Assembly (NCBI GenBank): GCA_031082125.1
Contig: JAVHLM010000021.1
Coordinates: forward strand, 1 to 64,000
DNA: 64,000 nucleotides
Direction: 5' to 3'
Source of the DNA: Candidatus Eremiobacterota bacterium
Lineage (GTDB): Bacteria; Vulcanimicrobiota; CADAWZ01; Ess09-12
The notes under the pieces are model-generated. The model was not told where the DNA came from. It saw nothing but the letters and a program-made list of their open reading frames with translations, and did no database searches. Positions 40,138-55,043 of the stretch are shown here, piece by piece. Numbering within the stretch: position 1 is the first letter of the stretch; each line of letters starts with the position of its first letter. A program made the position numbers and the translations under genes.

Positions 40138-41133
40138 ATGGGAGGAGGCCCCTCGAAGGCCATGAAAAAACTTGATAAAAAAGGCTGGCTCCATAAACAC
40201 ATAATCCTTCTCGGCATTGTGTTCGCGGCCCTTTACTGGCTTCTCCAGTCAGCGATGAAGGCCTTTATCCTGTACGAGGACAGCTTTGCCCGGGAGCTCT
40301 GCCCGTCCTCCACGGAAGAGCTGTGGCTGAGAACCCTGGTGGTCACCCTTCTTTTGATGTTTGCCACCTTTGTGCAGGTCATCATCACGAGGCTCAACAG
40401 GGCCGAGGAGGCCCTGAGGCGCGCCCGCGAGGACTTTGTGGCCATCCTGACCCATGACCTCAAGGGCCCCCTCTCGTCAATAATGGCTTACACGCAGCTC
40501 ATCATCAGCCCCAAGGCCGGCGGGATCTCCGCCGAGAAGATCTCCTTTGCCCGTTCAGTCCTCTTCTCGAGCGAGGAGATGATGGGCATGATACAGAACA
40601 TGGCCAATGTCTCAAGGATTGAAGGCGGATTCGCCGTGGAGCTTCACCGCGAGCCATTCCCCCTGAAAGCCCTCATTGACGAGATGGAGAAAAACTACGA
40701 GCCTCTTGCCGAGCAGTCAGGCCTTTCCCTGGAGTTCCTCTGCCCCGGCGACGTCGTCGTGGACGGCGACAGGGTGAAGCTGCGCCAGGTCTTTCATAAC
40801 CTTCTCTCCAACGCCCTGCGCTATACCCCGCGGGGCGGGCAGATCTCCGTGAAGGTCTCGGCGGATAACGGGAGGGCCGACGTTGAGGTAGGCGACACAG
40901 GAAAAGGCATCCCCCGGCGAGAACAGAAAGGGATATTCAACAAGTACTCGCAGGTAAAAGGGGACAGGCGCAGCACAGGACTGGGACTTTTTATCGTGAA
41001 GTCCTTCCTGGAGAGCCATGGCGCGGAGATAACCCTTGAAAGCGATGAGGGCAGGGGCACGAAATTCTTTTTCAGCCTCCCCATGGCCTGTGGAGAAGGA
41101 GGGCGCGATGGACCAGAGCGCAATGGACAATGA
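40138..41133 (+). CDS. Membrane sensor histidine kinase with short input region
   Basis: A 331-residue kinase with two membrane helices (about 22-42 and 60-83) around a short extracytoplasmic loop, then directly HisKA with THDLKGPLSS (His near 104) and HATPase (about 195-320) with N-box HNLLSNALRYTPRGG, DTGKGI and STGLGLFIV. No PAS or HAMP is seen. An internal ATG at 40162 with GAAGG is an alternative start. It overlaps the next kinase gene by 26 bases. With the kinases at 4316 and 41108 it shares the THDxKxP box, so the three look like paralogs. Confidence 0.87.
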   Translation: MGGGPSKAMKKLDKKGWLHKHIILLGIVFAALYWLLQSAMKAFILYEDSFARELCPSSTEELWLRTLVVTLLLMFATFVQVIITRLNRAEEALRRAREDFVAILTHDLKGPLSSIMAYTQLIISPKAGGISAEKISFARSVLFSSEEMMGMIQNMANVSRIEGGFAVELHREPFPLKALIDEMEKNYEPLAEQSGLSLEFLCPGDVVVDGDRVKLRQVFHNLLSNALRYTPRGGQISVKVSADNGRADVEVGDTGKGIPRREQKGIFNKYSQVKGDRRSTGLGLFIVKSFLESHGAEITLESDEGRGTKFFFSLPMACGEGGRDGPERNGQ

Positions 41134-42601
41134 GGAGAAAAGCCTCCTTGATGCCGTCTTTTCCTCCATGGGAGACGGCGTCTATTATACCGACGGAGAG
41201 CGCCGCATCCTCAGGTGGAACCGCGCCGCCGAGGAGCTCTCGGGATACCACGAGGATGAGGTCCTCGGGCGTCCCTGCAGCGAGATCCTGAACCACACCA
41301 GCAAGTGCGGCAAAGAGCTCTGCACCGAGGGCTGCCCCCTTGTGAAGGTCATGGAAGGCGATACCAGCGTCTTTGTCGAGGAGGTGTGGCTCAGGAGAAA
41401 GGATGGGAAGCGCGTGCCCGTCGAGGTGAACTGCACAACGGTGAGGGATGAGGGGGGAAACCTGCTGGGGATGGTGGAGATCTTCCGCGACAGGACAAAG
41501 CAGTGGGACCTGGCGCGCCTGCGCGAGGAGTTTCTTGCCGCCATGACCCATGACCTCAAGAGCCCCATGAGCGCCATCATAGGCTTTACCGATCTGCTGG
41601 CCGACCCGCGCCTCGGCGAGATCCCCGAGGCGAAAATGGAATTCGTCAGAATGATCCAGCACTCGAGCACCATGGTCCTCGCCATGATAAGCAATATCCT
41701 GGACAGCGCCCGCATAGAGGCGGGGCAGATGCTCTATGCCTTTGACACCTTCCTGCTGAACGAAGTGCTTGACGAGCTGGGCAAGGTCTTCATGCCCCTT
41801 ACCTCAAAGGGGGGTATTGCCTTTGATTTTCAGTGCCCTCCCTCAACATGGGTCTATGCCGATTATGGAAAAATTCTGCAGGTCTTCCACAACCTGATAA
41901 GCAATGCCCTCCGTTACACCTCTGAAGGGGGGAGGATCAGCATTGACGTGACCGATAGAGGGGATAACGTAGGCGTGGCGGTGGCCGACACGGGGAAAGG
42001 CATCGCCCGGGAGTTCCATGACAGGATCTTCCAGAAGTACGGGCAGGCGAAGGGCGAGCGCCGCGGGAGCGGCCTCGGCCTCTTTATCGTGAAAAACATC
42101 CTGGAGGGCCACGGTTCAGTGATTACCCTTGAAAGCGATACGGGCATGGGGACCCGGTTCCTCTTCAGCCTGAAGAAGGGCTCGCCTCCCCCCGAGGTGC
42201 CGTCCCGCCAGGGGAGCCTCATGCTGGTGGGCTCAGAGTCGGGGAGCATCCGCCTTGTCAGGCTCTTGCTGCAGAAAGAGGGCCACGAGGTGGAGGTCTT
42301 CACGCGGGGCGCAGAGGCTCTTGCACGCCTGGAAAAGCGCCTGTGCGACGTCATCCTGCTCCACAGGCCCCTCTCGGATATGCGGGAGGAGGACTTTGCC
42401 TACCAGGTGAAGAGCAGACCGATGCTTGGCGACATTCCTATTATACTGCTCTCGGCCCTGAGGCTCAAGGAATGGGAGGGCCGCTTTGACCTCATAGTCC
42501 CTCTCCCCGTCACCAAGCAGATTCTCAGGAAGGCTCTGGCGGGGCTGCTAGACACTCGCCGCTGCAGAGAAGCATCTTCACCGTCTCAGCAAACTCCGTG
42601 A
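41108..42601 (+). CDS. PAS histidine kinase fused to a degenerate receiver
   Basis: A 497-residue soluble kinase: PAS (about 12-125, with a Cys-rich insert CGKELCTEGCP), HisKA with THDLKSPMSA (His near 147), HATPase (about 250-360; HNLISNALRYTSEGG, DTGKGI, GSGLGLFIV) and a receiver-like end (370-485). There the phosphoacceptor Asp is His in VILLHRPLS and the acidic pair is replaced by Ser-Glu, so it should not be phosphorylated. The ATG at 41108 has GGAGGG about 6 bases upstream and lies inside the end of the preceding kinase. The 3' end overlaps the convergent receiver gene by 77 bases. Confidence 0.86.
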   Translation: MDQSAMDNEEKSLLDAVFSSMGDGVYYTDGERRILRWNRAAEELSGYHEDEVLGRPCSEILNHTSKCGKELCTEGCPLVKVMEGDTSVFVEEVWLRRKDGKRVPVEVNCTTVRDEGGNLLGMVEIFRDRTKQWDLARLREEFLAAMTHDLKSPMSAIIGFTDLLADPRLGEIPEAKMEFVRMIQHSSTMVLAMISNILDSARIEAGQMLYAFDTFLLNEVLDELGKVFMPLTSKGGIAFDFQCPPSTWVYADYGKILQVFHNLISNALRYTSEGGRISIDVTDRGDNVGVAVADTGKGIAREFHDRIFQKYGQAKGERRGSGLGLFIVKNILEGHGSVITLESDTGMGTRFLFSLKKGSPPPEVPSRQGSLMLVGSESGSIRLVRLLLQKEGHEVEVFTRGAEALARLEKRLCDVILLHRPLSDMREEDFAYQVKSRPMLGDIPIILLSALRLKEWEGRFDLIVPLPVTKQILRKALAGLLDTRRCREASSPSQQTP

Positions 42602-42932
42602 TTTGAAAGGGCTTGGGAAGGAACATGTCGGCCCCTGCGGCGAGGGCCTTCTCCCTGATATTCGCGTCGGTGATGGAAGAGGTGACCAGCACCGGGATAT
42701 CCCGGTAAAGATCGTTGAATTTCACGAGCCTCGACACTGCGAGGCCCGAGAGGGAAGGGAGAATAATGTCCAGGATCAGGAGGTCCGGTTTTTCCTGCTG
42801 GACCTTCTGGTAAATCTCGAGGCCGTCGCCGAAAAAGAGAATCTCCTGGTCCTCACCGGACTTCAGGGCCGCCTTCAGCAGCACGACCTGGAGAGGATTG
42901 TCTTCTGCCACGTAGATTTTTTTCTTTGCCAT
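42525..42932 (-). CDS. Single-domain response regulator at the end of the pilus operon
   Basis: A 135-residue CheY-like receiver. The acidic pocket AEDN, phosphoacceptor Asp in LLILDIILP, the Thr/Ser in VTSS and Lys in LPKPFQ are all present, so it can be phosphorylated. No output domain follows. GAGGTG lies close to the ATG at 42932. It begins 9 bases after the PilX-like gene in the pilM operon, and its last 77 bases lie antisense to the end of the kinase at 41108. Probably a local switch for the pilus machine. Confidence 0.88.
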   Translation of the reverse strand: MAKKKIYVAEDNPLQVVLLKAALKSGEDQEILFFGDGLEIYQKVQQEKPDLLILDIILPSLSGLAVSRLVKFNDLYRDIPVLVTSSITDANIREKALAAGADMFLPKPFQITEFAETVKMLLCSGECLAAPPEPS

Positions 42933-42941
42933 TTTCACCTC

Positions 42942-44135
42942 TTACCAGCGCGACAGGATATTGAGGCCCGAAGCCTGGGGCCCGTCGGGGCTGTTGAGCT
43001 GCAGATCGTAATGGAGGCCGTTGCTCCCCCCGATGGTGAGCGTGTTGGATGCAATGGCACCATGGAGGGCCACGCTGCTGTTGCCCCCGATCTTCACGTC
43101 GGAATGGGGGGCGTAAAGGGCGAAATAAAGGCCGTTGCTTTTGCTTCCCACGCCGTTTATCTCAAATTCCTGCTCAGATGACCCTCCGTAGATCAGAAAA
43201 TTTCCCGGCTTCGGGTTCGGGTTTGCCGCCGTGGTCCCGTTTATCGTGCTGTTGCCCGATATCTTCGTATCCCCGAGGATATAGATGGTGACCTTGTCGC
43301 CGTTGGTGGGCGCGAGCAGGTTGGCGCTGCCTGAGAGCTGCACGTCGCCGGTGAACACGTAGGTCCCCCCCGCAAGCTGCAGGGGGCCTTTCAGCTCAAG
43401 CTCGGTATAAATTCCGGGATTAAGGGTCCCTGAGGAGGGAGCTTCCCCCAGGTTCGTGCCCTCGGGGGGAGCGGGCGGCTCCGCGAGGGGCTTGTTGAGG
43501 CTGGTGGCCTGCGTGCCCAGGACGGTGGGCCCTCCGTTCAGCGTGATAATATCGGCGTTGGTGGCCAGGTTGCCCTGGTTGTTATTGGGGTTGCCCGGCG
43601 CGTAAGGCCCTGCCGCCGAGTCATAGCTGTCCACGAGGATCTTGTTGCCGCCCAGGGTGATTTCTGTATCGGTGAGCGCGGCGAACTGGAAAAGGGCTCC
43701 CCCTTTTACCGACACCAGCACCTCTTCCAGGCAGGTGGCGCTCCTGAAGCGGCCTACCGACACGAGGTGGACCGACCCTGCCGGCACCTGGCGGCCCTTG
43801 TAGCCCGTCACGGCGGCGCTGCCGGCGCCGTTGTTGGTGGAATAGGGCTGGGTGCCTGCGGTGAAGGTCATTTGGTATGTCGCGGGGGCATGGGGGAGCC
43901 GGGGATTATTCGGGTCATATGGAAAACCGGCGTTCCAGGCGGGGCTGCTCTTGAGCTGCAGCAGGGCATCCTGGATCCCCCCGTCGGCGGCGGCGTCAGC
44001 CACCACCTGCTGCTCCCTCATCTGCGCCATCCCCTTTTCCTGGCGGTAGTAGTTGGCGTAGGCGATGCCGAAGACAAGAAGTATCACCATCACTATAATG
44101 GTGAGGACGAGAATGTAGCCTCTGCTCCTTCTCAT
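42942..44135 (-). CDS. PilX-like pilus assembly protein
   Basis: A 397-residue protein with an N-terminal basic stretch and long hydrophobic helix (RGYILVLTIIVMVILLVFGIAYANYY), like PilX or other minor pilins but without the Glu5 of a typical prepilin. The large C-terminal part is Gly/Asn/Pro-rich beta sequence, with ITLGGNKILVDSYDS and VTIYILGDTKISGNSTINGT repeated as ladder-like strands. GGAGGTG lies 8 bases before the ATG at 44135. It is in the pilus operon 12 bases after the prepilin at 44148. It could cap or decorate the fibre or be a surface adhesin exported by it. Confidence 0.72.
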   Translation of the reverse strand: MRRSRGYILVLTIIVMVILLVFGIAYANYYRQEKGMAQMREQQVVADAAADGGIQDALLQLKSSPAWNAGFPYDPNNPRLPHAPATYQMTFTAGTQPYSTNNGAGSAAVTGYKGRQVPAGSVHLVSVGRFRSATCLEEVLVSVKGGALFQFAALTDTEITLGGNKILVDSYDSAAGPYAPGNPNNNQGNLATNADIITLNGGPTVLGTQATSLNKPLAEPPAPPEGTNLGEAPSSGTLNPGIYTELELKGPLQLAGGTYVFTGDVQLSGSANLLAPTNGDKVTIYILGDTKISGNSTINGTTAANPNPKPGNFLIYGGSSEQEFEINGVGSKSNGLYFALYAPHSDVKIGGNSSVALHGAIASNTLTIGGSNGLHYDLQLNSPDGPQASGLNILSRW

Positions 44136-44147
44136 GGAAAACACCTC

Positions 44148-44741
44148 CTAGTTGGCCGGGTATATGACGGCCTGCTGCGTCTGTTCGTCGATGGTGCCGT
44201 GCCGGCTCGTGTTCCTGACCGTCACGGAGAGCGTCATTGATTTATTGATAGCGTCGGTGGCAATGCTCAGCGACAGCACATCGGAAGCCACAAGCTTTCC
44301 TGTGCCATTGCATTGCGCCGTCAGCTCATCTGCCGTGAGGGCGGCGGTGAAGGTGCCGTAGACCTCACGGCGCATCAGATTGGTAGTGCCGGCCTTGAGA
44401 TAGTACACGACAAACTTTTTCCACACGGGAGCCCCCGTCACGGTATCGGTGGTGAAAGTCCCGGATGTGTCATAGGCCGAGATGGCGCTGAAGGCCCTGC
44501 GGTCCGCTGAGACCGTGACAAAGGACAGCCTGGTGTCCTTCAGGTCCTCGGTGATATTATACATTGCTGCGGTGAGGTCCTGGCGCCCCTTGCCGCGCGC
44601 CACCGATGCCTGGTAGGTCTTCTTCCCCGCAAGCAGCATGACCACGAGGATGCCCGACAGGAAGGATACAATGATCATGGCTGCAATCAGCTCGGGAAGG
44701 CTCATGCCCTTCAGAAACCAGGCCTTTCCTCTCTCTCTCAT
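44148..44741 (-). CDS. Prepilin-like protein (type IV pilin/pseudopilin)
   Basis: A 197-residue protein starting at 44741 (GGAGGGTGAC upstream). The leader ends FLKG, followed by MSLPELIAAMIIVSFLSG: a prepilin-peptidase site after Gly with Glu at +5, but Met rather than Phe at +1. The hydrophobic helix then leads to a beta-rich domain. In-frame sequence extends to 44930 but lacks good starts and overlaps the preceding gene. It fits a minor pilin or PilW/GspJ-type subunit. Confidence 0.8.
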   Translation of the reverse strand: MRERGKAWFLKGMSLPELIAAMIIVSFLSGILVVMLLAGKKTYQASVARGKGRQDLTAAMYNITEDLKDTRLSFVTVSADRRAFSAISAYDTSGTFTTDTVTGAPVWKKFVVYYLKAGTTNLMRREVYGTFTAALTADELTAQCNGTGKLVASDVLSLSIATDAINKSMTLSVTVRNTSRHGTIDEQTQQAVIYPAN

Positions 44742-44833
44742 TTCAGTCACCCTCCGATTTTCCCAGGCGATGAGCCCGCCCTCTTCTCTCACTCTCCTTG
44801 GATTCCCCCCCCGGCCGGGAGATTCAAAGACCT

Positions 44834-45256
44834 TTATTTCAGCCTCGTGAAGACCGTCTCCACCACCTCGTGCTTTGTCTGGAATGCCGCCGACCTGCCG
44901 CCTCTCTCGGTCCACGACAGATCGACCCATACGATTTTCTTGTCGGCTCCCTGGGCCTCTACCGATACGTTGTAGAGGATCTCGAGCGTATGCACTTTAT
45001 CCTTCACGCCCTGTGCGCTGTCGTCGAGGCCCGTGTAAGTCACTTTGCCTGAGTACGCGTAAATATCGTCAAAGGTCCTGGTCTTCATGCCTTCCAGCAC
45101 GCTCCTTCCCAGGAAGGCCGCCTTGACCCTGTTCTCCGATGCCTGCATGCCCCTGCGCTGCATCGAAAACACTGACACCAGCGTGATGATAAGGATGGCG
45201 ATGAGCACAAAGGCTATCAGGCTCTCGATGAGTGTGAATCCCTGGCTTTTTTTCAT
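44834..45256 (-). CDS. Prepilin-like protein, PilV/GspI type
   Basis: A 140-residue prepilin with the textbook leader MKKSQG and mature start FTLIESLIAFVLIAILII (cleavage after Gly, Glu at +5). A short beta-rich domain follows, with two Trp near residue 115-120. GGGGGA lies about 7 bases before the ATG. It lies 15 bases after pilC. Its size fits a minor pilin such as PilV or a GspI-like pseudopilin. Confidence 0.85.
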   Translation of the reverse strand: MKKSQGFTLIESLIAFVLIAILIITLVSVFSMQRRGMQASENRVKAAFLGRSVLEGMKTRTFDDIYAYSGKVTYTGLDDSAQGVKDKVHTLEILYNVSVEAQGADKKIVWVDLSWTERGGRSAAFQTKHEVVETVFTRLK

Positions 45257-45271
45257 GGGCTTTTCCCCCTG

Positions 45272-46489
45272 TCAGTTGATGAGCGTGCTCACGGTGAGGA
45301 ACGGCAGGGCAAGCGTGATGATGACAGCTCCCAGCCCTATGCCGATGAATATCATGATAATTGGCTCAACGAGGCCGGAGAGAGCCTGGAGCGATATCTC
45401 CACCTGCGCCTCATAGAAATCAGCGAGCTTTGCGAGGATGGTGTCCAGGGAACCGGTCTCCTCGCCGGCGGCGATCATGCTGATGGCCATTTCGGTGAAA
45501 GCTTTGCTTCTCCTGAGGGGATCGGCAAGCTGCTCGCCCTCGCGGAGGTTCTTGAGGGCCCCTTTCACCACGTTTTCCATGACCCTGTTTCCCGTGCTTC
45601 CCGAGACGAGCTCCATCGCGTCAAGGATGGGCACGCCGCTCGAGTAGAGCGTGGCGAGTGTGCGGGCGAAGCGCGAGATGGCCACTTTCTGGAAGAGCTC
45701 CCCGAGGAGCACCATGTTGATCTTGAAGGTGTCGATGGCAAGCTGGCCCGCCTCGGTTCTCGCGAATCTTACGAAGAGGTAGATGGCGACGCCGATCAGG
45801 GGGAAGATGATATACCACCAGGTCCCCAGGAAGCTGCAGAAGTTTATCAGCGTCTGCGTGGTGAAGGGGAGCTCCCTTCCCAGCTCGTCATAGATGCTCT
45901 TGAGCCTCGGGATGCCGAAGGTGAAGAGAAAGACCATGACCAGGACGGCGAAGCAGACCACTATCGTGGGATAGTAAAGGGCCGCCTCCACTTTTCTCCT
46001 GAGGTACTCCGAGCGCTGGATATAGTCCGAGAGCCTGTTCAGGATGAGGGGGAGATTTCCCGACTTCTCGCCGGCCCCGACCATTGAGACGTAGAGCTTC
46101 GAGAAGACCCGGGGAAACTGCCTCATCATCTCCGAGAGGGATTTCCCCTGGGAGAGCCCCGTGGCGAGGTTGGTCACCACGACCTTCAGGCTGCGGCTTG
46201 AGATGTCATTGCCCACCACTTCAAGGGAGCGCTTGAGGGGAATCCCCGCGTCAAGCATGGAGCTGAGCTCCTGGGTGAGCAGCAGAAGGTCTTCAGTCTT
46301 CACCCTGAGGTTTTTGTAGGCCGCCGCCGATGATGCCATGGTAGCGGTGGACGCCGTCATCGTGAGGCTCGTCACGATGAGATCCTTTTCCGCAAGCACC
46401 TTGTGAGCCGCATCGGGGCTGTCGGCCTCAAGCATCCCCGAGACTTTTTTCCCCTCGCTGTCCAGTGCGGAAAATGAGAACTGTGGCAT
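45272..46489 (-). CDS. pilC: PilC/GspF inner-membrane platform protein
   Basis: A 405-residue protein of the usual length with the duplicated T2SSF domain. The N-terminal part (FSFSALDSEGKKVSG) and the repeated helical modules are present, for instance LLTQELSSMLDAGIPLKRSLEVV and FARTLATLYSSGVPILDAMELVSG. Membrane helices occur near 170-195, 225-245 and 375-400. It would anchor the assembly ATPase to the growing fibre. GGAGG lies 5 bases before the ATG, 24 bases after pilB. T2SS versus pilus cannot be settled from this protein alone. Confidence 0.88.
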   Translation of the reverse strand: MPQFSFSALDSEGKKVSGMLEADSPDAAHKVLAEKDLIVTSLTMTASTATMASSAAAYKNLRVKTEDLLLLTQELSSMLDAGIPLKRSLEVVGNDISSRSLKVVVTNLATGLSQGKSLSEMMRQFPRVFSKLYVSMVGAGEKSGNLPLILNRLSDYIQRSEYLRRKVEAALYYPTIVVCFAVLVMVFLFTFGIPRLKSIYDELGRELPFTTQTLINFCSFLGTWWYIIFPLIGVAIYLFVRFARTEAGQLAIDTFKINMVLLGELFQKVAISRFARTLATLYSSGVPILDAMELVSGSTGNRVMENVVKGALKNLREGEQLADPLRRSKAFTEMAISMIAAGEETGSLDTILAKLADFYEAQVEISLQALSGLVEPIIMIFIGIGLGAVIITLALPFLTVSTLIN

Positions 46490-46513
46490 AGCCCCTCCTC
46501 TTTCTCCGTGATC

Positions 46514-48184
46514 TTAATCACCCTCTGCGGTGACGCTCAGCACCTCTTCTATGCTTGTTTCCCCCTCAAAGAACTTTTCCAGGGCGCTGTCCCTGAGGGC
46601 TCTGAAGTAGCCGTCAACGGCAAGCCTTTTAATCACCTCGGGGGTCACGTCCGAGGCAGGAAGCCTCCGCATGGCATTGGTGATCTCCAGGTACTCATAG
46701 ACTGCCAGGCGCCCCTTGTATCCGAAGCCGCCGCAGGCCTGGCACCCTGCCGGCTCGAACACCTCGTACTCCTCGGGGATGTAGCTCACTCCGTAAGCCT
46801 GGAGCTCATCCCTGGTAAGCTCCGCCTTTTTCCTGCACTTGGGGCAGAGGCGCCTCACGAGCCTCTGGGCCAGGACTCCCAGCAGCGACGCGAAGATGAG
46901 GTACGAGGCGATGCCCATGTCCAGGAGGCGCGTCACCGCCGAAGCGGCGTCGTTGGTGTGGAGCGTGCTGAAGACCATGTGGCCCGTGAGTGACGAGCGG
47001 ATGGCTATCTCTGCCGTCTCAAGATCCCGGATCTCGCCGAGCATTACGATGTCGGGGTCATGGCGCAGGATGGACCTGAGGCCCCGCGCAAAGGTGAAAT
47101 CGATATCGGAGTTCACCTGGATCTGCGTGATCCCTTTCAGCTGGTACTCGACGGGGTCCTCGATGGTGATTATCTTTTTCTTGGGAGTGTAAATATGTTT
47201 CAGTGTTCCGTAGAGAGTAGTGGATTTCCCCGACCCTGTGGGGCCTGTCACGAGAAAGAGGCCGAAGGGCCTTTTTATGAGCTTCTTGTAATGGTCAAGC
47301 ATGACAGTGTTGAAGCCAAGGTCCTCCAGGTCGATGGAGCGCCCCACCGTTGCCAGGATGCGGATCACGATGCCTTCGCCATGGACGTTGGGGATTATCG
47401 AGACTCTCAGGTCATAGACATCATCGCCGATTCTGAAGGAGGCTCTCCCGTCCTGGGGCATCCGCCGCTCGGCGACGTCCAGGTTGGAGATTATCTTGAA
47501 GCGCGACACTATGGCCCGGTAAAGGTGCAGGGGCGGCGGCGGGAACTCGTAGAGGATGCCGTCCACCCGGTAGCGGAGGAACACCGAGTCGGGAAAGAGC
47601 TCAAGGTGAAGATCGCTCGCGCCGAGGTTCACCGCCTGGGAGATCATGTAGTTCACCAGCTTGATGACAGGGGCGCTCTCGTCCTCAATCATAAGGGCCT
47701 CAAGGCCCTCGGCATTATCTTCCTCTTCCTTTTTCTCGGCGAAGGTGCCCATGGCCTGGGCTGTTTTCTCCTCGGTGAGGAAGATCTTGTTGATGGCAGC
47801 TATGATGGAGTCCTTCGTTGCGATAACGGGCTCAACGGTGAGCCCCGTCATCTGCCTGAGGAAGTCGTGAATGGTGAGATCATCGGGATCGGTGACGGCT
47901 ACAAAGAGGTGGTCATCAAGCTCAAAGAGCGGAATTGCAGTAAAGCGCCTCATGACGCTCTCGTTCAGCCTGTCAACGGAGGCCTTCTGGGGATGATAGA
48001 GCTCAAGCTCCACGCTGGGGAGGTGGTAATGGCGCGAAAGGAGGGAGAGGAGAGATCTTGACGGGATGAGGCCCTTTTCCACAAGGAATTCAGCGGGGTT
48101 TCTTCCCCCGTGCGCTTCGTTCCGGGCCTGAAGGATCACGTCGGGGCCGAGGTCCTTTTCCAGCTCATCAAGCCATTCATGCAT
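46514..48184 (-). CDS. pilB: PilB/GspE assembly ATPase
   Basis: A 556-residue hexameric motor. The N-terminal MshEN-like region (1-150, with LVEKGLIPSRSLLSLLS) is of the type that binds c-di-GMP in some members. The ATPase has Walker A GPTGSGKST (near 315), the Asp box IEDPVEY, Walker B DPDIVMLGEIRD and the His box TGHMVFSTLHTND. The four-Cys zinc site CPKC and CQACGGFGY follows (near 445-485). It would drive pilus or pseudopilus extension. It is the second gene after pilM. A second, related ATPase is encoded divergently at 49820. Confidence 0.9.
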   Translation of the reverse strand: MHEWLDELEKDLGPDVILQARNEAHGGRNPAEFLVEKGLIPSRSLLSLLSRHYHLPSVELELYHPQKASVDRLNESVMRRFTAIPLFELDDHLFVAVTDPDDLTIHDFLRQMTGLTVEPVIATKDSIIAAINKIFLTEEKTAQAMGTFAEKKEEEDNAEGLEALMIEDESAPVIKLVNYMISQAVNLGASDLHLELFPDSVFLRYRVDGILYEFPPPPLHLYRAIVSRFKIISNLDVAERRMPQDGRASFRIGDDVYDLRVSIIPNVHGEGIVIRILATVGRSIDLEDLGFNTVMLDHYKKLIKRPFGLFLVTGPTGSGKSTTLYGTLKHIYTPKKKIITIEDPVEYQLKGITQIQVNSDIDFTFARGLRSILRHDPDIVMLGEIRDLETAEIAIRSSLTGHMVFSTLHTNDAASAVTRLLDMGIASYLIFASLLGVLAQRLVRRLCPKCRKKAELTRDELQAYGVSYIPEEYEVFEPAGCQACGGFGYKGRLAVYEYLEITNAMRRLPASDVTPEVIKRLAVDGYFRALRDSALEKFFEGETSIEEVLSVTAEGD

Positions 48185-48201
48185 AAGTGGCTTTTCTCCC
48201 T

Positions 48202-49236
48202 TTAGTCAAAAGTCAGTCCCATGGCTACACTGAAAGTGCTGAAGCCGTCGTCGCCCTCTGCGGAGCCCTCGCCCTGGACGCCAGACCGCTTGATCCTGTC
48301 CCACCTGTCGCTCTCCACAGGGAGGGCAATGAAGCTGGAGAGCCTCAGGTCCAGGTTCTTCATTGCCGCGGTGCCGCCGGTGATGAATATCTTCTTGATG
48401 TCGAAATTTTCGCCAGGGAACTGCTTGACAAAAAACTCGATGGATCTCTTTACATCGTCAAGCCACCGGGTGATGAAGGGCTCTATGGCCGTCTCTTTGG
48501 CCAGCACGTCGTACTTGAGCTTGGTCTCCTCGGCTTCTCTCCAGCTGCACTGGCCCCCCATCTGGAGCGCGTAAGTAAAATCCCTCCCCGAGATGGAGAG
48601 CTCTCTCACGAAGTAGGGATAGCGGTCCCGTAAGACGATAAAGAATGAGTAACGGAAGCCCATGTGGATTATGGCGAAAAACTCATCCTTGGGAAACCTG
48701 TGGTTGAGGGCGAAGAGGCGCGAAAGCGACAGGACCGGTGTCTCGATCCTGTTCAGGTTGAGGCCCGTCGCTTTCATGATTGCCTTGAGCTCCTCGAGTG
48801 TCTCGTTCTGCTCGGCGATAAAGAATACGGCGCTTTTTTTCTTGGCCGTCGAGAGCTGCGGCACGTTCACGAAGGAGAGCGTCATGTCTTTCAGCGGGAA
48901 GGGCACGTATTTTGATGCCTGGGAGTTCACGGCGACGGAGAGCTCCTTGGGCTTGAGAAGGGGAAGCTCAAGGTAACGGGCCACGCTCCCGCTTCCCTGC
49001 ACCGAGGCACTCACGTGCTTCCCGAAGCCGGGGACCTCCTTCTGGCAGACTTTCACCAGCTCGTTGACGCAGCGGATGAGCTCTTCCCTCGAGGCGAGCT
49101 GATCACGGGTCTGACGGTCCGCCATGGTAGCGCAGAGCCTCATGTCCCTGACAAGGTATTTGTCAGACAGGGAGGTGGCGCATTTCACGCTGTCCTGGCC
49201 TATGTCAAGACCTGCGGTGACTTTTTTTCCGAACAT
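48202..49236 (-). CDS. pilM: PilM actin-like pilus assembly protein
   Basis: A 344-residue cytosolic protein of the FtsA/PilM family. The first phosphate motif is AGLDIGQDSVKCA, the later phosphate and adenosine motifs are IIHMGFRYSFFIV and IFITGGTAAMKNLDLRLS, and VNSQASKYVPFPLKDM is the usual PilM segment. GAGGTAAG precedes the ATG. It is the first gene of the seven-gene operon and the usual partner of PilN, which is not adjacent. Its presence is the strongest argument that the machine is a type IV pilus and not a simple type II secreton. Confidence 0.88.
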   Translation of the reverse strand: MFGKKVTAGLDIGQDSVKCATSLSDKYLVRDMRLCATMADRQTRDQLASREELIRCVNELVKVCQKEVPGFGKHVSASVQGSGSVARYLELPLLKPKELSVAVNSQASKYVPFPLKDMTLSFVNVPQLSTAKKKSAVFFIAEQNETLEELKAIMKATGLNLNRIETPVLSLSRLFALNHRFPKDEFFAIIHMGFRYSFFIVLRDRYPYFVRELSISGRDFTYALQMGGQCSWREAEETKLKYDVLAKETAIEPFITRWLDDVKRSIEFFVKQFPGENFDIKKIFITGGTAAMKNLDLRLSSFIALPVESDRWDRIKRSGVQGEGSAEGDDGFSTFSVAMGLTFD

Positions 49237-49273
49237 CTCTTACCTCGCTGCAACCCGGGAAGACTCTCATCTT

Positions 49274-49303
49274 TTTACGTCAATTTTGACTTTCGTCTAT
49301 TAT
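49274..49303 (+). promoter_or_regulatory. Promoter of the receiver-ATPase-kinase operon, with inverted repeat
   Basis: TTTACG (49274-49279) and TATTAT (49298-49303) are spaced 18 bases apart on the plus strand. Between them GTCAA and TTGAC form an inverted repeat (49279-49290). It lies in the 189-base gap between the divergent pilM and receiver genes and could control both sides. Confidence 0.45.
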
Positions 49304-49425
49304 TGTTCAATGAGAGGCCAATCTCCTTCTCACCTTCTGGATGCCGTCAGACGGAGAAAAGATGGAAGGTGATTTCCTCCCGGAAGAGAACAGTATGATG
49401 AGGCAGAAGGCGCAAGGAGGAGTCC

Positions 49426-49815
49426 ATGGCGAAGGAAATGATCTTTGTGGCAGAGGATGAGCAGGATATTCAGAAGGTAATCAAGGTCACGCTGAAATAC
49501 AAGGGCGGCTTCGAGGTGAAATTCGCAGGCAACGGACTGGAGCTGCTGGACCTGGTGAAGGAGGAGAAGCCGGCCCTCATCATCTGCGACGTCATGATGC
49601 CCAGGATGGACGGCTACGAGGCCTGCAGGACCCTCAAGGCCCAGCCTGACACTGCTTCCATCCCCTTCGTGTTCCTCACGGCGAAAGCCCAGGAGAAGGA
49701 GATCGAGGAGGGCCTGGCCCTCGGAGCCATTGACTACATAAAGAAACCCTTTGAGCCCGACGAGTTTGTGGCGAAAGTGAAGGGGCTGCTGGGGAACGCT
49801 TCTCGGAAGGAGTGA
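49426..49815 (+). CDS. Single-domain response regulator
   Basis: A 129-residue CheY-like receiver with complete site: AEDEQD, Asp in LIICDVMMPRMDG, Thr in FLTA and Lys in IKKPFEP. GGAGGAG lies 6 bases before the ATG. It is the first gene of the operon 49426-55043 and only 4 bases before the second PilB/GspE gene, so it may act on that motor directly. No output domain. Confidence 0.9.
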   Translation: MAKEMIFVAEDEQDIQKVIKVTLKYKGGFEVKFAGNGLELLDLVKEEKPALIICDVMMPRMDGYEACRTLKAQPDTASIPFVFLTAKAQEKEIEEGLALGAIDYIKKPFEPDEFVAKVKGLLGNASRKE

Positions 49816-49819
49816 GCTC

Positions 49820-51526
49820 ATGGCTGAAGCCGACAAGGTGGCAAGTTTCGGGAAAATGCTCGTGGAGTCGGAGACCATCACGGAGAACCAGTGGAAACAG
49901 GTGATGGACTTCTACAAGACCACTCACAAGTCCATCGAGGCCATCCTCATCGAGCAGAAACTGGTGGAGCCATCCCATCTTGGCGATCTGCTCGAGTTCT
50001 ACTACCAGGTGCCTGTCGTGAAGCTCGAGGAGTTCATCATCTCAATGGACTCGGTGCACCTTATCCCCGAGAATATCGCCCGCCAGTACTGCTTCATGCC
50101 CATGAGCCTCAAGGGAAAAGAGCTCACGGTGGCGATGGCGGATCCCAACGACATCGTGGCCCTTGACACGGTGAAATACATGCACAGGGATTTCACCCTC
50201 AAGGTGGTCTATGCCACCCGCGAGGATGTCGAGAGGGCGATAAAGACCTATTACGGCGCCGGCGACACCTTTGAGGACACCGTGAGGGAGGTCTCAAAGA
50301 AGGCGGCCGAGGCAAAGCATGAGTTCGGCTCCGAGGAGAAGGCCCTCGAGACCCTCAGCGAGGAGACACCTGTGATCCAGCTGGTGAACAGGATACTCCA
50401 CGCCGCCGTCGATAAGCATGCGAGCGATATCCATTTCGAGCCCACGGAGAAGAAAGCCGTCATCCGATTCAGGATAGACGGCATCCTTCACATAGAGCTC
50501 ACGCTCCCCATGTCAGCCTATCCTTCCATGATATCAAGGCTCAAGATACTGTGCGGCATGAATATTGCCGAGAGGCGCCTCCCCCAGGACGGGAGGACCC
50601 GCATCAAGGTGGGAGAGCGCGAGGTTGACATCAGGGCCAGTGTCTTCCCCCTCGTCTTCGGGGAAAAAATGGTTCTCAGGCTCCTGGACAGGAGCACGAC
50701 GCTTGCCAACCTTGACAAGCTGGGCTTTTCCGAAGAGAATTACAGGAAGTACTCGGAGATAATCTCCCAGCCGTACGGTATGATGCTCATCACGGGACCC
50801 ACAGGGAGCGGAAAAAGCACTACCCTCTTTGCGACGCTTAACAAGGTGAAGTCGATTCATCATAATGTTATCAGCGTTGAAGACCCTGTCGAGTACCAGA
50901 TCGACATGGTAAACCAGGCGCAGGTCAACGCGAGAATTGGCCTCGACTTCGCCAACTGCCTCCGCTCCATCCTCCGCCAGGATCCCGATATCATCATGGT
51001 GGGCGAGATAAGGGATAAGGAGACCGCCGAGATCGCCTTTCATGCCGCGATGACAGGCCATTTTGTGCTCTCGACGCTCCATACCAACGATTCCTGCTCT
51101 TCCGTCACGAGGCTCGTGGAGATGGGGATCCCCGCCTACCTGGTGGCCTCGGTGGTCTCGGGCGCCATGGCCCAGAGGCTTCTGCGCTGCATCTGCATCG
51201 AGTGCCGCGAGGATCAGGAGATTGATGACCGTGTCTGGACCGAAATATTCGGATCGCCGAAGGACAAGCCCGAAAAGGTGTACAGGGGCGTGGGCTGCCC
51301 CTCGTGCTATAACACGGGCTACCTCAGGAGAGTGGCCGTCACGGAGGTCATGAAGATGACTTCCCGCATAAAGAAGCTTGTCTCTGTCGGTGAGCCGCTG
51401 GAGAAGATCATTGAGGCGGCCCGGGAAGAGGGCCTCAGGCCCCTCAGGGAGGACGCGATGATAAAGGTCATCCAGGGCATCACGACGCTGGAAGAAGTGC
51501 TTCGCACCACAGTAAAGGAGCTATAG
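49820..51526 (+). CDS. Second PilB/GspE-family ATPase
   Basis: A 568-residue motor with an N-terminal MshEN-like region (1-145; VASFGKMLVESETIT and FYYQVPVVKLEEF). The ATPase is complete: GPTGSGKST (near 327), VEDPVEY, DPDIIMVGEIRD, TGHFVLSTLHTND and a zinc site with CIECRED and CPSCYNTGY. It is roughly as similar to the ATPase at 46514 as separate family members usually are. It is sandwiched between a receiver and a degenerate kinase and not next to a PilC gene. It may be an alternative extension motor, or a GspE of another system, under direct two-component control. It lacks the PilT signature as far as I can see. Confidence 0.87.
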   Translation: MAEADKVASFGKMLVESETITENQWKQVMDFYKTTHKSIEAILIEQKLVEPSHLGDLLEFYYQVPVVKLEEFIISMDSVHLIPENIARQYCFMPMSLKGKELTVAMADPNDIVALDTVKYMHRDFTLKVVYATREDVERAIKTYYGAGDTFEDTVREVSKKAAEAKHEFGSEEKALETLSEETPVIQLVNRILHAAVDKHASDIHFEPTEKKAVIRFRIDGILHIELTLPMSAYPSMISRLKILCGMNIAERRLPQDGRTRIKVGEREVDIRASVFPLVFGEKMVLRLLDRSTTLANLDKLGFSEENYRKYSEIISQPYGMMLITGPTGSGKSTTLFATLNKVKSIHHNVISVEDPVEYQIDMVNQAQVNARIGLDFANCLRSILRQDPDIIMVGEIRDKETAEIAFHAAMTGHFVLSTLHTNDSCSSVTRLVEMGIPAYLVASVVSGAMAQRLLRCICIECREDQEIDDRVWTEIFGSPKDKPEKVYRGVGCPSCYNTGYLRRVAVTEVMKMTSRIKKLVSVGEPLEKIIEAAREEGLRPLREDAMIKVIQGITTLEEVLRTTVKEL

Positions 51527-51529
51527 ATC

Positions 51530-52234
51530 ATGGGAGAGCATCTTTTTCTCACAAGCCTTAATAAGCCCCCCTTTTTCAGAAAGGCCTTTCATGACCTCAG
51601 GAACCCCCTGGTGGTCATCAAGGGATACCTGGCACTCATGCGCGAGGGCTGCGGCGGTGACCTCTCAGAAGAGCACCGTGAATGGGTTGACGATATGCGG
51701 AGCAACTCGGAGCACCTGCTGGATCTTGTGAATACCCTGGCCGATCTCAGCTTTCTTGAATCAGGAATATGGGAGGAGAAGAAGACCTCCCTTGACATGA
51801 AGGAGATCGTGGCCCGCTCTCTGAAAGAGCTCGCGCCCATGAGGAAAAATGTCTCCACCGCCGCCTCATTCCCCGAGAAGGCCTGTTTTTACGACGGCGA
51901 CGAGCTCTATATCACGAGGGCCTGCCGCGGGCTCATTCACCACGGGCTGGTCTATGGCCAGGAGGGCGCCGCGGTGCCGGTCAAGCTCAGGGATGACCCC
52001 CATGCCCTCTCCCTTGTCGTTGAGGTCCCCGGCCTTGTGCTCGCAGAGGATCAGCAGAAAGCCATCTGTGAAGGCTTTTTCTCCGGCGAGCCTGCCGGTG
52101 AGGCAAAAGCCACGGGGCTTGAGCTTCTGATAGCCCACATGGTGGCGGCCAATTACGGAGGCGGTCTTGTCGCGGAGAGCGCCCCGGGGAAAGGAACAAG
52201 CTACACACTCACCTTTGTAAGATTTTCGCATTAA
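51530..52234 (+). CDS. HisKA protein with degenerate ATPase domain
   Basis: A 234-residue protein with a HisKA-like helical hairpin, AFHDLRNPLVVIKGYLALM (His near 20), and a HATPase-like C-terminus. The N-box is RACRGLIHHGLVYG, with no Asn, and the DxGxG motif is EVPGLVL; only a G2-like ATGLELLIAHM and the end GKGTSYTLTF remain. ATP binding is thus doubtful. It may be a phosphotransfer or dimerising scaffold accepting phosphate at the His. AAGGAG lies within the end of the ATPase gene. It is followed by a receiver gene 12 bases on. Confidence 0.75.
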   Translation: MGEHLFLTSLNKPPFFRKAFHDLRNPLVVIKGYLALMREGCGGDLSEEHREWVDDMRSNSEHLLDLVNTLADLSFLESGIWEEKKTSLDMKEIVARSLKELAPMRKNVSTAASFPEKACFYDGDELYITRACRGLIHHGLVYGQEGAAVPVKLRDDPHALSLVVEVPGLVLAEDQQKAICEGFFSGEPAGEAKATGLELLIAHMVAANYGGGLVAESAPGKGTSYTLTFVRFSH

Positions 52235-52246
52235 AGGAGGGATTTC

Positions 52247-52627
52247 ATGACCCATCACATACTGATTGTCGAGGACAACGCATCCATTGCCAGGATATGG
52301 CAGCTCAAGCTCGTCAAGGAAGGCTATGAGGTCACTCATGCCAAGACCGGCAAGGAGGGCCTTGACAGGGTCAAGGAGAAGAAGCCCTCCCTCATTCTGA
52401 TGGATATCATGATGCCGGGGGACCTCGACGGCGTAGAGGTCTTCCGCCAGCTCCGCCAGAACGTCGAGACCGCCGATATCCCCGTCATATTCCTGAGCTC
52501 AAGCGTGAAGGACAAGCAGGAGATCCAGAAGATCCTGGACATGGGGGCCCTGGATTTCATGGCCAAGTTCCAGATCACGCCCGACGAGCTCGCCCAGAAA
52601 ATCAAAGTCCACCTCGCGGGAGCGTGA
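52247..52627 (+). CDS. Single-domain response regulator
   Basis: A 126-residue receiver with VEDN, Asp in LILMDIMMPGDLDG and SSSV. The usual KP near the end is AKFQITPDE, keeping the Lys but losing the Pro. GGAGG lies 6-7 bases before the ATG. It is the third two-component gene of the operon, 7 bases before the kinase that probably feeds it. Confidence 0.9.
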   Translation: MTHHILIVEDNASIARIWQLKLVKEGYEVTHAKTGKEGLDRVKEKKPSLILMDIMMPGDLDGVEVFRQLRQNVETADIPVIFLSSSVKDKQEIQKILDMGALDFMAKFQITPDELAQKIKVHLAGA

Positions 52628-52634
52628 GGCAGGA

Positions 52635-55043
52635 ATGATAGGGCGCAGTGTCAAGCTTCAGAGAAAGCTCATTGGGTTTCTTCTCATAGTCTCCCTGGTC
52701 CCCCTTGCCATAATGGGGGTTTACGGCATCTTACTCAACAGGCGCCACCTCATCTTCTCGGAAAAGTACAAGGTGGCCTCCATCATATCCCTTCACAACG
52801 TCATGTGCACGAAGATGCTCAATTCTTCAGGTGACAGCCTTATTTTCCTCTCGCAGGAGGCTTCCCTTCCCCGCCTTCTCAGCGGCAGCGCAAAGGCCGG
52901 GGACAGAGAGGCAGAAGTCGCCGTCTTATCCAGATTGCTCACGGAGCAGATGCGTCTCCGTGCCGAGAAGTTCAGCCGTCTTTCCCTGCTTGACGGTGAA
53001 GGCAGGGAGCTCTTCAGGATTATGAAGGATCCGGCCCTCGGCAGTTATCACCAGTCACTCCAGAGTCCGGTATCTTATGGCGATGACCCCCTGGTGCAGA
53101 GGGCCATCGCCCTCCAGGTGGGCCATATCAAGGGAGACCCCTCCTCGGCTTTCCCTTCGAGCGCCGTGATAACAGGCACTGTTTTTGACGGCGCTTCCTG
53201 CATCGTGCTCCTTACCCCTTTCTATACACCGTCGGGGAATTATCGGGGCGGGCTCATCGCGGTGCTGGACAGCTCCTTTATAAAAACATCTCTGCTGTAC
53301 AAGCACAGAAACGAGATGATCCAGAACTTCAACGAGTTTACCTACCTTGCCACCGATGACGGTTCAGTACTTACCTCCACCGATCCCTCCTTTGCCGGCA
53401 GCGGAAAAAGCTCCCCTGAGGCGATGAATGTGAAGAGGCTTTTCAGCAAGGCAGATTTTGACGCCATCACCGGTAAATACCAGGAAAGCAAATTTGACAA
53501 GGGTGAATGGGTCTGGTCTTTTGACACTGTCTTCCCTGCCATCCCCGCCATGTATGAGCGCCCGGGCGGCAAGGTCAGGGCCTCTCTGAAGACAATTGTG
53601 AGAGTGAAATACGATGATCTTTTCAAGGTGCTCAAATGGCATCATAATATCATTGCGATTCTGCTGGGCGCCTCGACGATCATGAGCCTTTTGTCAGGGG
53701 TGTACCTCACCAGGAAGTTCCTGATCCCCATCAACATCATCATGAAAGGCACCGAGGAGGTGTCGGGGGGGAACCTGGACTATGAGATCACCATCAGGAG
53801 CGACGACGAGTTCGAGGCTCTTGCCAATCGTTTCAACAGCATGACGCGGAGCCTCAAGGAGATCTATGCCAACATAGAGCAGAAGGTCGTGGAGCGCACC
53901 GAGGAGCTTGCCCAGGCCAACAGGCTCCTCGGCGACGCCAAGGAGCAGACGGCACGCGATAAGGAACGCATCGAGGCGGTCCTGAATTCCACCAAGGAAG
54001 GGATCCTGATGGTGGACAGGGAGGGGAGCCTCATCCTGTCAAACCGCGCATGCCTTGAGCATTTCTCGCTCTCCCTCGCCCCGGAAGGCCAGGGAAAGCC
54101 ATGGAATCTAAAGGATCTCATCACCCCTGCGGAGATTTTCCAGGACCCGGCGCGGTACTCATCTGATATGGCCGCGCTCGTGGAGCACATGGACGAGGTG
54201 CGCTCCGGCCATTTCATAAGGCTCAAGCCCTTCCTTCAGATCGTGGAGTGGTTCAGCGCCCCGGTCGTCCACAGCACAGGCTCCGTCCTCGGGAGGATCA
54301 TCGCCCTGAGGGATATCACCAGGGAGAAGGAAGTGGAGCGCATGAAGGACGAGTTCGTCTCCATCGTCTCCCATGAGCTCCGCACACCCATGACAAGCAT
54401 ATCAGGCTCCCTTTCGCTTGTGCTTGACGGCACCGTAGGTGAAATCAACGAGGATCAGAAAGAGCTCCTCGATATCGCCAAGAACAACACGACGCGCCTC
54501 ATCAGGCTCATCAACGACATCCTGGACATCTCCAAGATAGAGTCGGGGAAGATAAGGATGAAGAAGGAGCCTGTCGATATCAACAAGGTGGTGGAGGACT
54601 CCGTCGGGGGCATCGGAGGCTTCGCGGAGAACTATGGCGTAAAGCTCTCAAGCGATCTCGGAGAAGACATCCCCTCTTTTGCCGCCGACCGCGACAGGCT
54701 CATCCAGGTCGTGACCAACCTCCTCTCCAATTCCATCAAGTTCAGCCCCCGCGGCGGCACTGTATTTACGAAGACATGGAGCGGCGAGGGAAAGGTCTTT
54801 GTCTCTGTCCGCGACGAGGGCACAGGGATCCCGAAAGACTACCATGAGAAGATATTTGAAAAGTTCCAGCAGGTTGACAGCTCGACGGTAAGGGAAAAGG
54901 GAGGCACGGGCCTGGGGCTCCCCATATGCAGGGCCATCATCCAGGAGCACGGGGGCTCCCTCTGGGTCGAGAGCGAGCCCGACAAGGGGAGCACCTTCAC
55001 GTTTTTCGTGCCTCTTGCCGGGGAAGCTTCCGACAAAGCCTGA
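52635..55043 (+). CDS. Transmembrane sensor histidine kinase, HAMP-PAS-HisKA-HATPase
   Basis: An 802-residue kinase. Two membrane helices (about 14-36 and 336-356) enclose an exported sensor of about 300 residues that resembles a Cache-type domain. HAMP (about 357-410), a coiled coil, PAS (about 445-560), HisKA with VSHELRTPMTS (His near 578) and a full HATPase (N-box TNLLSNSIKFSPRGG, DEGTGIP, GTGLGLPI) follow. It is the only complete canonical kinase of this operon and the likely phosphate source for the receivers at 49426, 52247 and perhaps 42525. GGCAGGA sits just before the ATG. Confidence 0.9.
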   Translation: MIGRSVKLQRKLIGFLLIVSLVPLAIMGVYGILLNRRHLIFSEKYKVASIISLHNVMCTKMLNSSGDSLIFLSQEASLPRLLSGSAKAGDREAEVAVLSRLLTEQMRLRAEKFSRLSLLDGEGRELFRIMKDPALGSYHQSLQSPVSYGDDPLVQRAIALQVGHIKGDPSSAFPSSAVITGTVFDGASCIVLLTPFYTPSGNYRGGLIAVLDSSFIKTSLLYKHRNEMIQNFNEFTYLATDDGSVLTSTDPSFAGSGKSSPEAMNVKRLFSKADFDAITGKYQESKFDKGEWVWSFDTVFPAIPAMYERPGGKVRASLKTIVRVKYDDLFKVLKWHHNIIAILLGASTIMSLLSGVYLTRKFLIPINIIMKGTEEVSGGNLDYEITIRSDDEFEALANRFNSMTRSLKEIYANIEQKVVERTEELAQANRLLGDAKEQTARDKERIEAVLNSTKEGILMVDREGSLILSNRACLEHFSLSLAPEGQGKPWNLKDLITPAEIFQDPARYSSDMAALVEHMDEVRSGHFIRLKPFLQIVEWFSAPVVHSTGSVLGRIIALRDITREKEVERMKDEFVSIVSHELRTPMTSISGSLSLVLDGTVGEINEDQKELLDIAKNNTTRLIRLINDILDISKIESGKIRMKKEPVDINKVVEDSVGGIGGFAENYGVKLSSDLGEDIPSFAADRDRLIQVVTNLLSNSIKFSPRGGTVFTKTWSGEGKVFVSVRDEGTGIPKDYHEKIFEKFQQVDSSTVREKGGTGLGLPICRAIIQEHGGSLWVESEPDKGSTFTFFVPLAGEASDKA

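Follow-up and report, generated by a model that had tools for sequence, protein, structure and literature searches.

Receivers encoded with two non-canonical PilB-type motors point to post-translational control of a type IV pilus in an Eremiobacterota bacterium

Introduction

Does a cell control the motor of a type IV pilus through receivers that are encoded beside it? This question is raised by a locus at positions 42525–55043 of a window of DNA (the whole stretch that was analysed, 64,000 nucleotides; positions 1 to 64,000 of contig JAVHLM010000021.1, assembly GCA_031082125.1) from a Candidatus Eremiobacterota bacterium, in which two assembly ATPases, motor 1 and motor 2, are encoded in divergent operons together with the stand-alone receivers REC1, REC2 and REC3 and with histidine kinases. 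Direct action of a CheY-like receiver on a pilus extension motor is an open matter in the best-studied system, that of PilG/PilH and PilB, and one direct case, that of EmvR, has recently been described. Our analysis indicates that the locus encodes an unusual, non-canonical type IV pilus whose motors are probably controlled post-translationally by their own two-component receivers, and it suggests that signalling acts on the motor itself, not only on the amount of motor protein. Direct post-translational control is the most economical reading because the receivers lack an output domain, are linked to motors in a class-specific manner and occur in natural fusions.

Results

Two motors apart from the canonical PilB

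Motor 1 (46514–48184, minus strand) and motor 2 (49820–51526, plus strand) are both assembly motors of the PilB/GspE superfamily (PF00437 with MshEN), each with a T2SSE domain, an N-terminal MshEN domain, Walker A, the His box and the zinc-type CxxC pairs. Their scores were below the NCBIfam cut-offs for PilB (TIGR02538, 675.65 bits: 565.9 for motor 1 and 583.3 for motor 2) and for GspE (TIGR02533, 630.25 bits: 553.4 and 555.5, respectively), whereas the canonical PilB of the same genome (L049, encoded as PilB-PilT-PilC) was above the PilB cut-off with 676.8 bits. The best sequence matches in PDB were full-length PilB chains for both motors, and for motor 2 they came ahead of GspE and PilT.

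For phylogeny and gene neighbourhoods, 149 genomes of the phylum were searched alongside 50 genomes of other phyla, neighbourhoods being called with purpose-built hidden Markov models on fragmentary contigs. In trees (186 PilB-type motors, and a 75-row mixture-model tree), motor 1 fell into clade A (15 rows, Shimodaira–Hasegawa-like approximate likelihood ratio test (SH-aLRT) 99), which occurred only in the window's phylum among the genomes searched and whose loci are of the PilM-motor-PilC-PilX type. Motor 2 fell into clade B (6 rows, SH-aLRT 89), and L049 was placed in a separate, well-supported clade, sister to an Armatimonadota sequence in the 75-row tree. A clade B profile built from five of its motors set those same five clear of the rest across the phylum (912 versus 672 bits), and all five were receiver-coupled; the sixth tree member, L082, lies at a contig end. 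Judged by sequence, neither window motor is the canonical PilB of the genome, and motor 2 is a PilB-type motor, not an unrelated GspE. A preliminary description of this DNA had proposed motor 2 as an alternative or signal-gated extension motor; the tree sustains the PilB-type placement, and extension is deduced only from the family.

The motif for cyclic di-GMP (c-di-GMP) in MshEN (two RLGxx...GLI...LxxxLxxQ) is degenerate in the alignment of both window motors, with R/G/Q positions lost, and against the model of c-di-GMP-binding MshEN (NF053729, cut-off 38 bits) motor 2 scored 28.4 bits and motor 1 gave no match. The idea that the receivers replace a lost c-di-GMP control was rejected, since the canonical motors of the phylum also depart from the consensus (the first Arg is replaced), which makes the MshEN contrast uninformative.

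Receivers accompany the non-canonical motors

REC1 (49426–49815, plus strand, 4 bp upstream of motor 2), REC2 (52247–52627, plus strand) and REC3 (42525–42932, minus strand) were identified by Pfam Response_reg, and all of them keep the phosphorylation residues in alignments, namely the acidic pair, the phospho-Asp, the S/T and the Lys. According to Pfam, none of the receivers of the locus carries a DNA-binding output domain. A receiver was fused to the motor or encoded within 4.5 kb of it in 12 of 15 clade A rows and 5 of 6 clade B rows (the sixth being at the contig end), against 1 of 25 canonical PilB rows, where the lone receiver is divergent and 2.1 kb from the motor. Fisher's test on clades A and B together (17/21) versus the canonical clade (1/25) gave 5e-8, a value that overstates independence because the rows are related.

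The receivers themselves fall into classes. Members of the REC-A class (REC3 and its counterparts) scored 122–200 bits against the class profile in the 149 genomes, with one outlier at 96 bits and a continuum from about 92 bits down; REC3 scored 182 bits, with a gap before the next class. Nine held-out members that had not been used in profile building (eight, and L153 of G018) were all found in loci that also encode PilM, a motor, PilC or PilX (9/9), as opposed to none of the next-best receivers (0/7; p = 9e-5), and in this test the REC-A class is pilus-specific. No match above 99.5 bits was obtained in the 50 genomes of other phyla. Two divergent REC-A-like receivers of G144 (L316 and L317, 122 and 96 bits) occur in further PilX-PilM-motor-PilC loci, which suggests that the class is broader than its profile.

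REC2 scored 183 bits against the profile of a second class, REC-B, whose alignment has a shared Trp in helix 1 and the conserved Lys without a following Pro. In G007, a truncated motor whose N-terminus is most similar to clade B begins 4 bp after a REC-B receiver that had been held out of the profile. REC-B as a motor-only class was rejected, as more distant members adjoin unrelated genes. REC1 lies outside both classes (92.7 bits for REC-A, 96.2 bits for REC-B).

Receivers fused to motors and kinases in relatives

In G006 and G007, which belong to two other families than the window's genome, a REC-B-class receiver is the N-terminal domain of a clade B motor (REC-MshEN-T2SSE; L079 9822–11912 and L097 4720–6813), and in G005 and G009 it is the operon kinase beside the clade B motor that bears a fused receiver of this class. 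REC2 of the window is a separate gene of the class that is fused elsewhere to motor or kinase. Together with the counts for clades A and B and the held-out REC-A members, these fusions argue that the receiver-motor coupling seen in the preliminary description is not a local accident.

The operon of G009 reads clade B motor, PilV-, PilW- and PilX-like sequences (the last again of DUF7305), a small membrane protein and the kinase-REC2 fusion, with no PilC; therefore, motor 2 and the minor pilins, which are in the opposite operon in the window, form one unit there. A PilB apart from PilC in a receiver/kinase operon had been considered unusual; PilC is indeed lacking from the plus-strand operon of the window and from that of G009, but in the latter motor 2 is not apart from pilin genes. 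One motor-2 orthologue (L078 8366–10402, G009:C218) runs in frame into a PilV-like prepilin with no stop, being either a real fusion or an assembly error.

Other fusions were observed as well. Several sister motors of the PilB type bear zinc-ribbon-like linkers and C-terminal receivers (L113, L116, L135, L149 6912–9230 and L118 6652–10452), in which the acidic pocket is mostly lost, L118 being the one that keeps it. Another clade of PilB-type motors has an N-terminal Ser/Thr-kinase-like domain (L157 7447–10596 in G032, L159 5592–8330 in G015, L160 7003–9927 in G028 and L161 6161–8776 in G012); the Lys position of VAIK is Arg, DFG is changed to EFG, and HRD is lost in L161. These domains are probably pseudokinases, because key residues look altered.

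Gene content of the locus and its kinases

The minus-strand operon reads, in order, pilM (48202–49236; Pfam PilM_2), motor 1, the gene of the PilC/GspF platform protein (45272–46489; Pfam T2SSF and NCBIfam), a PilV-like prepilin gene (44834–45256; start G↓FTLIE, Pfam N_methyl), a PilW-like prepilin gene (44148–44741; cleavage-like start G↓MSLPE, N_methyl sub-threshold with E = 0.023), a PilX-like minor pilin gene (42942–44135; DUF7305, PF23981) and REC3. The divergent intergenic region of 189 bp (49237–49425), in which one weak sigma-70-like match on the plus strand is not evidence of function, separates it from the plus-strand operon, which reads REC1, motor 2, a soluble histidine kinase-like protein (51530–52234), REC2 and a transmembrane sensor histidine kinase (52635–55043). 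Genes within the operons are spaced by 3–24 bp, with a single exception of about 92 bp before 44741. Every gene named for the two operons in the preliminary description was recovered in its place, by Pfam or, for the second prepilin, by its start motif. With motor, PilC platform, prepilins and PilM in one operon, the locus qualifies as one for the assembly of a type IV pilus (pseudopilus). Its annotated genes, to which the search was confined, included no secretin, PilN/PilO, major pilin or prepilin peptidase, and likewise no CheA, CheW or chemoreceptor; no PilT was found in the window locus, and Rfam gave no match.

Two further histidine kinases on the plus strand, a membrane kinase downstream of the locus (HisKA-HATPase, 40138–41133) and a PAS-histidine kinase-receiver protein (PAS-HK-REC, 41108–42601), are convergent toward REC3, the second overlapping its 3′ end; both are additions to the range given in the preliminary description. 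The membrane kinase has intact N, G1 and G2 boxes, and its kinase domain is 42–48% identical to kinases of the orthologous locus in G008 and to that of 41108–42601. By its 43% identity over the full length (E = 6e-154), PAS-HK-REC is orthologous to the PAS-HK-REC of G008 (L126 10386–11921), which is divergent from pilM there. A kinase family with 47–82% identity directly follows REC-A receivers in five loci (L053, L056, L131, L158 and L310). The kinases at 40138–42601 are part of the pilus locus.

The kinase-like protein at 51530–52234 (Pfam HisKA and HATPase) had been described as degenerate. Motif alignment agreed for the ATP-binding part, which has lost its N, G1 and G2 boxes and does not indicate an active histidine kinase, but the H-box (FHDLRNP) is intact; on these motifs, it is possibly a phosphotransfer or phosphatase protein. 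A clear orthologue was sought and rejected, as all matches were generic kinases (about 22–31% identity), and it is by position that it is equated with the kinase portion of the kinase-REC2 fusions in G005 and G009. The transmembrane kinase (HAMP-PAS-HisKA-HATPase) has intact catalytic motifs and an unassigned extracytoplasmic part; for this sensor domain, a single-sequence model had a predicted local distance difference test (pLDDT) value of 31, and the match to dCache was sub-threshold. A Ser/Thr protein kinase with TPR repeats (38169–39638) adjoins the locus, and kinases of this kind are found repeatedly close to T2SSE-family genes of the genome.

Linkage in the rest of the genome and in other phyla

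The window's genome (G000) is a draft of 7.43 Mb in 69 contigs, 97.6% complete with 2.2% contamination. It has 149 receiver-domain matches, 21 of which are short stand-alone frames, and 38 T2SSE-family matches. Five of the 21 stand-alone receivers have a T2SSE-family ATPase as immediate neighbour, compared to about 0.25 expected if about 6,300 genes are assumed (binomial 4e-6). Three more operons on other contigs read PilM-motor-REC (L053, L055 and L056), with a kinase following in two. About 12 of the 38 ATPases have MshEN and about 25 do not, many being PilT-like and some in tandem pairs. At L057 4925–7802 (G000:C15), a stand-alone receiver comes after two tandem PilT-like ATPases, an arrangement that makes receiver control of retraction motors possible too.

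Outside the phylum, no N-terminal receiver fusion was found among 80 named PilB loci, and in the 50 whole genomes none of the motor matches listed (E <= 1e-90) continued across a receiver. Exclusiveness of the coupling to the phylum was nevertheless rejected, as Omnitrophota and KSB1 motors also adjoin receivers: in Omnitrophota, stand-alone receivers are directly before PilB-type motors with PilC next (L348, L349 and L351; in L204 a receiver is nearby), and in KSB1 they flank a PilB-type motor (L350). These one to three CheY-like receivers are outside the score ranges of REC-A and REC-B. Receiver-motor adjacency is therefore wider than the window's phylum.

Discussion

We consider it probable that the receivers of this locus act on its motors. 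In the mechanism that we propose, PilM, PilC and the three minor pilins would be the partners of motor 1, and its receiver would be REC3, which is probably phosphorylated by the kinases at 40138–42601. REC2 and REC1 would serve motor 2, in this view an alternative motor of the PilB type; the transmembrane kinase would sense an external signal and phosphorylate REC2 and/or REC1, and the protein at 51530–52234 may pass on or remove phosphoryl groups. The phosphorylated receivers would bind the motor, the REC2 class at its N-terminal side, and thereby act as a switch for ATP hydrolysis or for the engagement of the motor with PilC. Of this scheme, the genes, the motor clades, the class-specific linkage and the natural receiver-motor fusions are observed, and we infer the phosphoryl flow, direct binding, the effect on activity (activation or inhibition), pilus extension and a platform shared by both motors. 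As a tentative extension that we consider rather doubtful, the locus could be a signal-operated motor exchange, in which a single PilC and a single set of minor pilins are served by a pair of PilB-type motors, with a separate class of phospho-receiver gating each, and an external signal picks the motor; receiver-gated, receiver-fused or kinase-domain-fused PilB motors would then be a general mode of control in the phylum and also, through different receiver classes, in Omnitrophota and KSB1.

Several findings weigh against control of the motors by dedicated receivers. The support for clade B is moderate and comes from 5–6 sequences, REC1 has no class of its own, and REC-B-like receivers (118–145 bits) are also found away from pili. 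Among 87 named PilB-like sequences, there are likewise 12 with a receiver gene at a distance of 4.5 kb or less, and many of these fit transcription control of the PilS-PilR kind. The composite divergent locus, for which conservation had been asked, is not conserved as a unit: each half is kept separately, but in the 149 genomes the complete pair of divergent operons was found nowhere else. In addition, a review of P. aeruginosa states that no interaction of PilG/PilH with PilB had been reported (PMC11656802).

The strongest alternative, which we regard as possible and yet less probable, is that the receivers do bind the motors but mainly set their place and timing by recruitment to a pole or another site, not the rate of ATP hydrolysis. 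Polar localisation of PilB depends on PilG in P. aeruginosa (PMC12632253; PMC11656802), the pseudo-receiver of Myxococcus FrzS works by recruitment (PMC11580455), and the loss of most acidic pockets in the C-terminal receivers of sister motors fits docking. On the other hand, local phospho-switching is at least as compatible with the N-terminal motor fusions and with stand-alone receivers that keep their phosphorylation residues, and EmvR acts on ATPase activity (PMC11973254).

It is unlikely that motor 2 drives a separate machine similar to a type II secretion system or pseudopilus, or is a counter-acting motor, and merely neighbours the pilus operon. The lack of PilC in its operon in the window and in G009, its scores under the cut-offs of both PilB and GspE, and the small size of clade B would suit such a motor; its relative in G009 is nonetheless co-operonic with PilV/PilW/PilX-type minor pilins, its best sequence matches in PDB are PilB chains, and its operon shares a divergent promoter region with pilM in the window.

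Single-domain receivers often serve as relays or phosphate sinks. We find it improbable that the kinases and receivers here are such an ordinary phosphorelay or sink for distant regulators, with adjacency to the pilus reflecting co-regulation only: the many receiver matches in the genome leave room for it, but natural receiver-motor fusions, class-specific linkage in many families and the excess of stand-alone receivers immediately beside T2SSE ATPases speak against it. Finally, misassembly or contamination of the draft as the source of two unrelated operons side by side is very improbable, given its contig number and contamination on one side and, on the other, a window on a 145-kb contig, linkage repeated in many independent genomes and the three PilM-motor-REC operons on other contigs.

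With motors that are naturally fused to a receiver, and with receiver classes that follow the motor clades, the question of receiver control can be addressed by a defined biochemical test on a single polypeptide. These findings also suggest an origin or spread of such post-translational control of pilus motors in several phyla that have been little studied. What is already known is one biochemical case of receiver control of PilB; in addition, a survey of MshEN lists REC and Ser/Thr protein kinase among the domains associated with it (PMC5013675). A dedicated receiver-motor module with receiver classes and N-terminal motor fusions appears to be undescribed in searchable open-access text.

Among known systems, the closest is Xanthomonas EmvR, a single-domain receiver that binds PilB and represses its ATPase in a manner requiring the phospho-Asp (PMC11973254). 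A CheY-like receiver as post-translational controller of a PilB-type assembly ATPase is common to both, in our case as predicted from genes; unlike the orphan EmvR and its canonical PilB, the window receivers are encoded with non-canonical motors and locus kinases, have motor-specific classes and are fused in relatives. In the Pil-Chp system of P. aeruginosa, the CheY-like receivers PilG and PilH influence the extension motor as well (PMC12632253; PMC11656802), but a CheA-type chemosensory kinase operates there and ordinary HisKA kinases in the window pilus locus. The MshEN survey, as far as its accessible part goes, is a domain list that does not describe REC-MshEN-T2SSE fusions with conservation of receiver class and operon (PMC5013675). 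The canonical type IVa pilus operon of the same genome (L049) has homologous motor and platform proteins; in contrast, the window locus has no PilT, and its motors belong to separate clades from the one in which receivers are so rare. PilR is a transcription factor. Two-component genes adjoin pilus genes in PilS-PilR as they do here, whereas the window receivers have no output domain and are linked to motors, to which they are fused in relatives.

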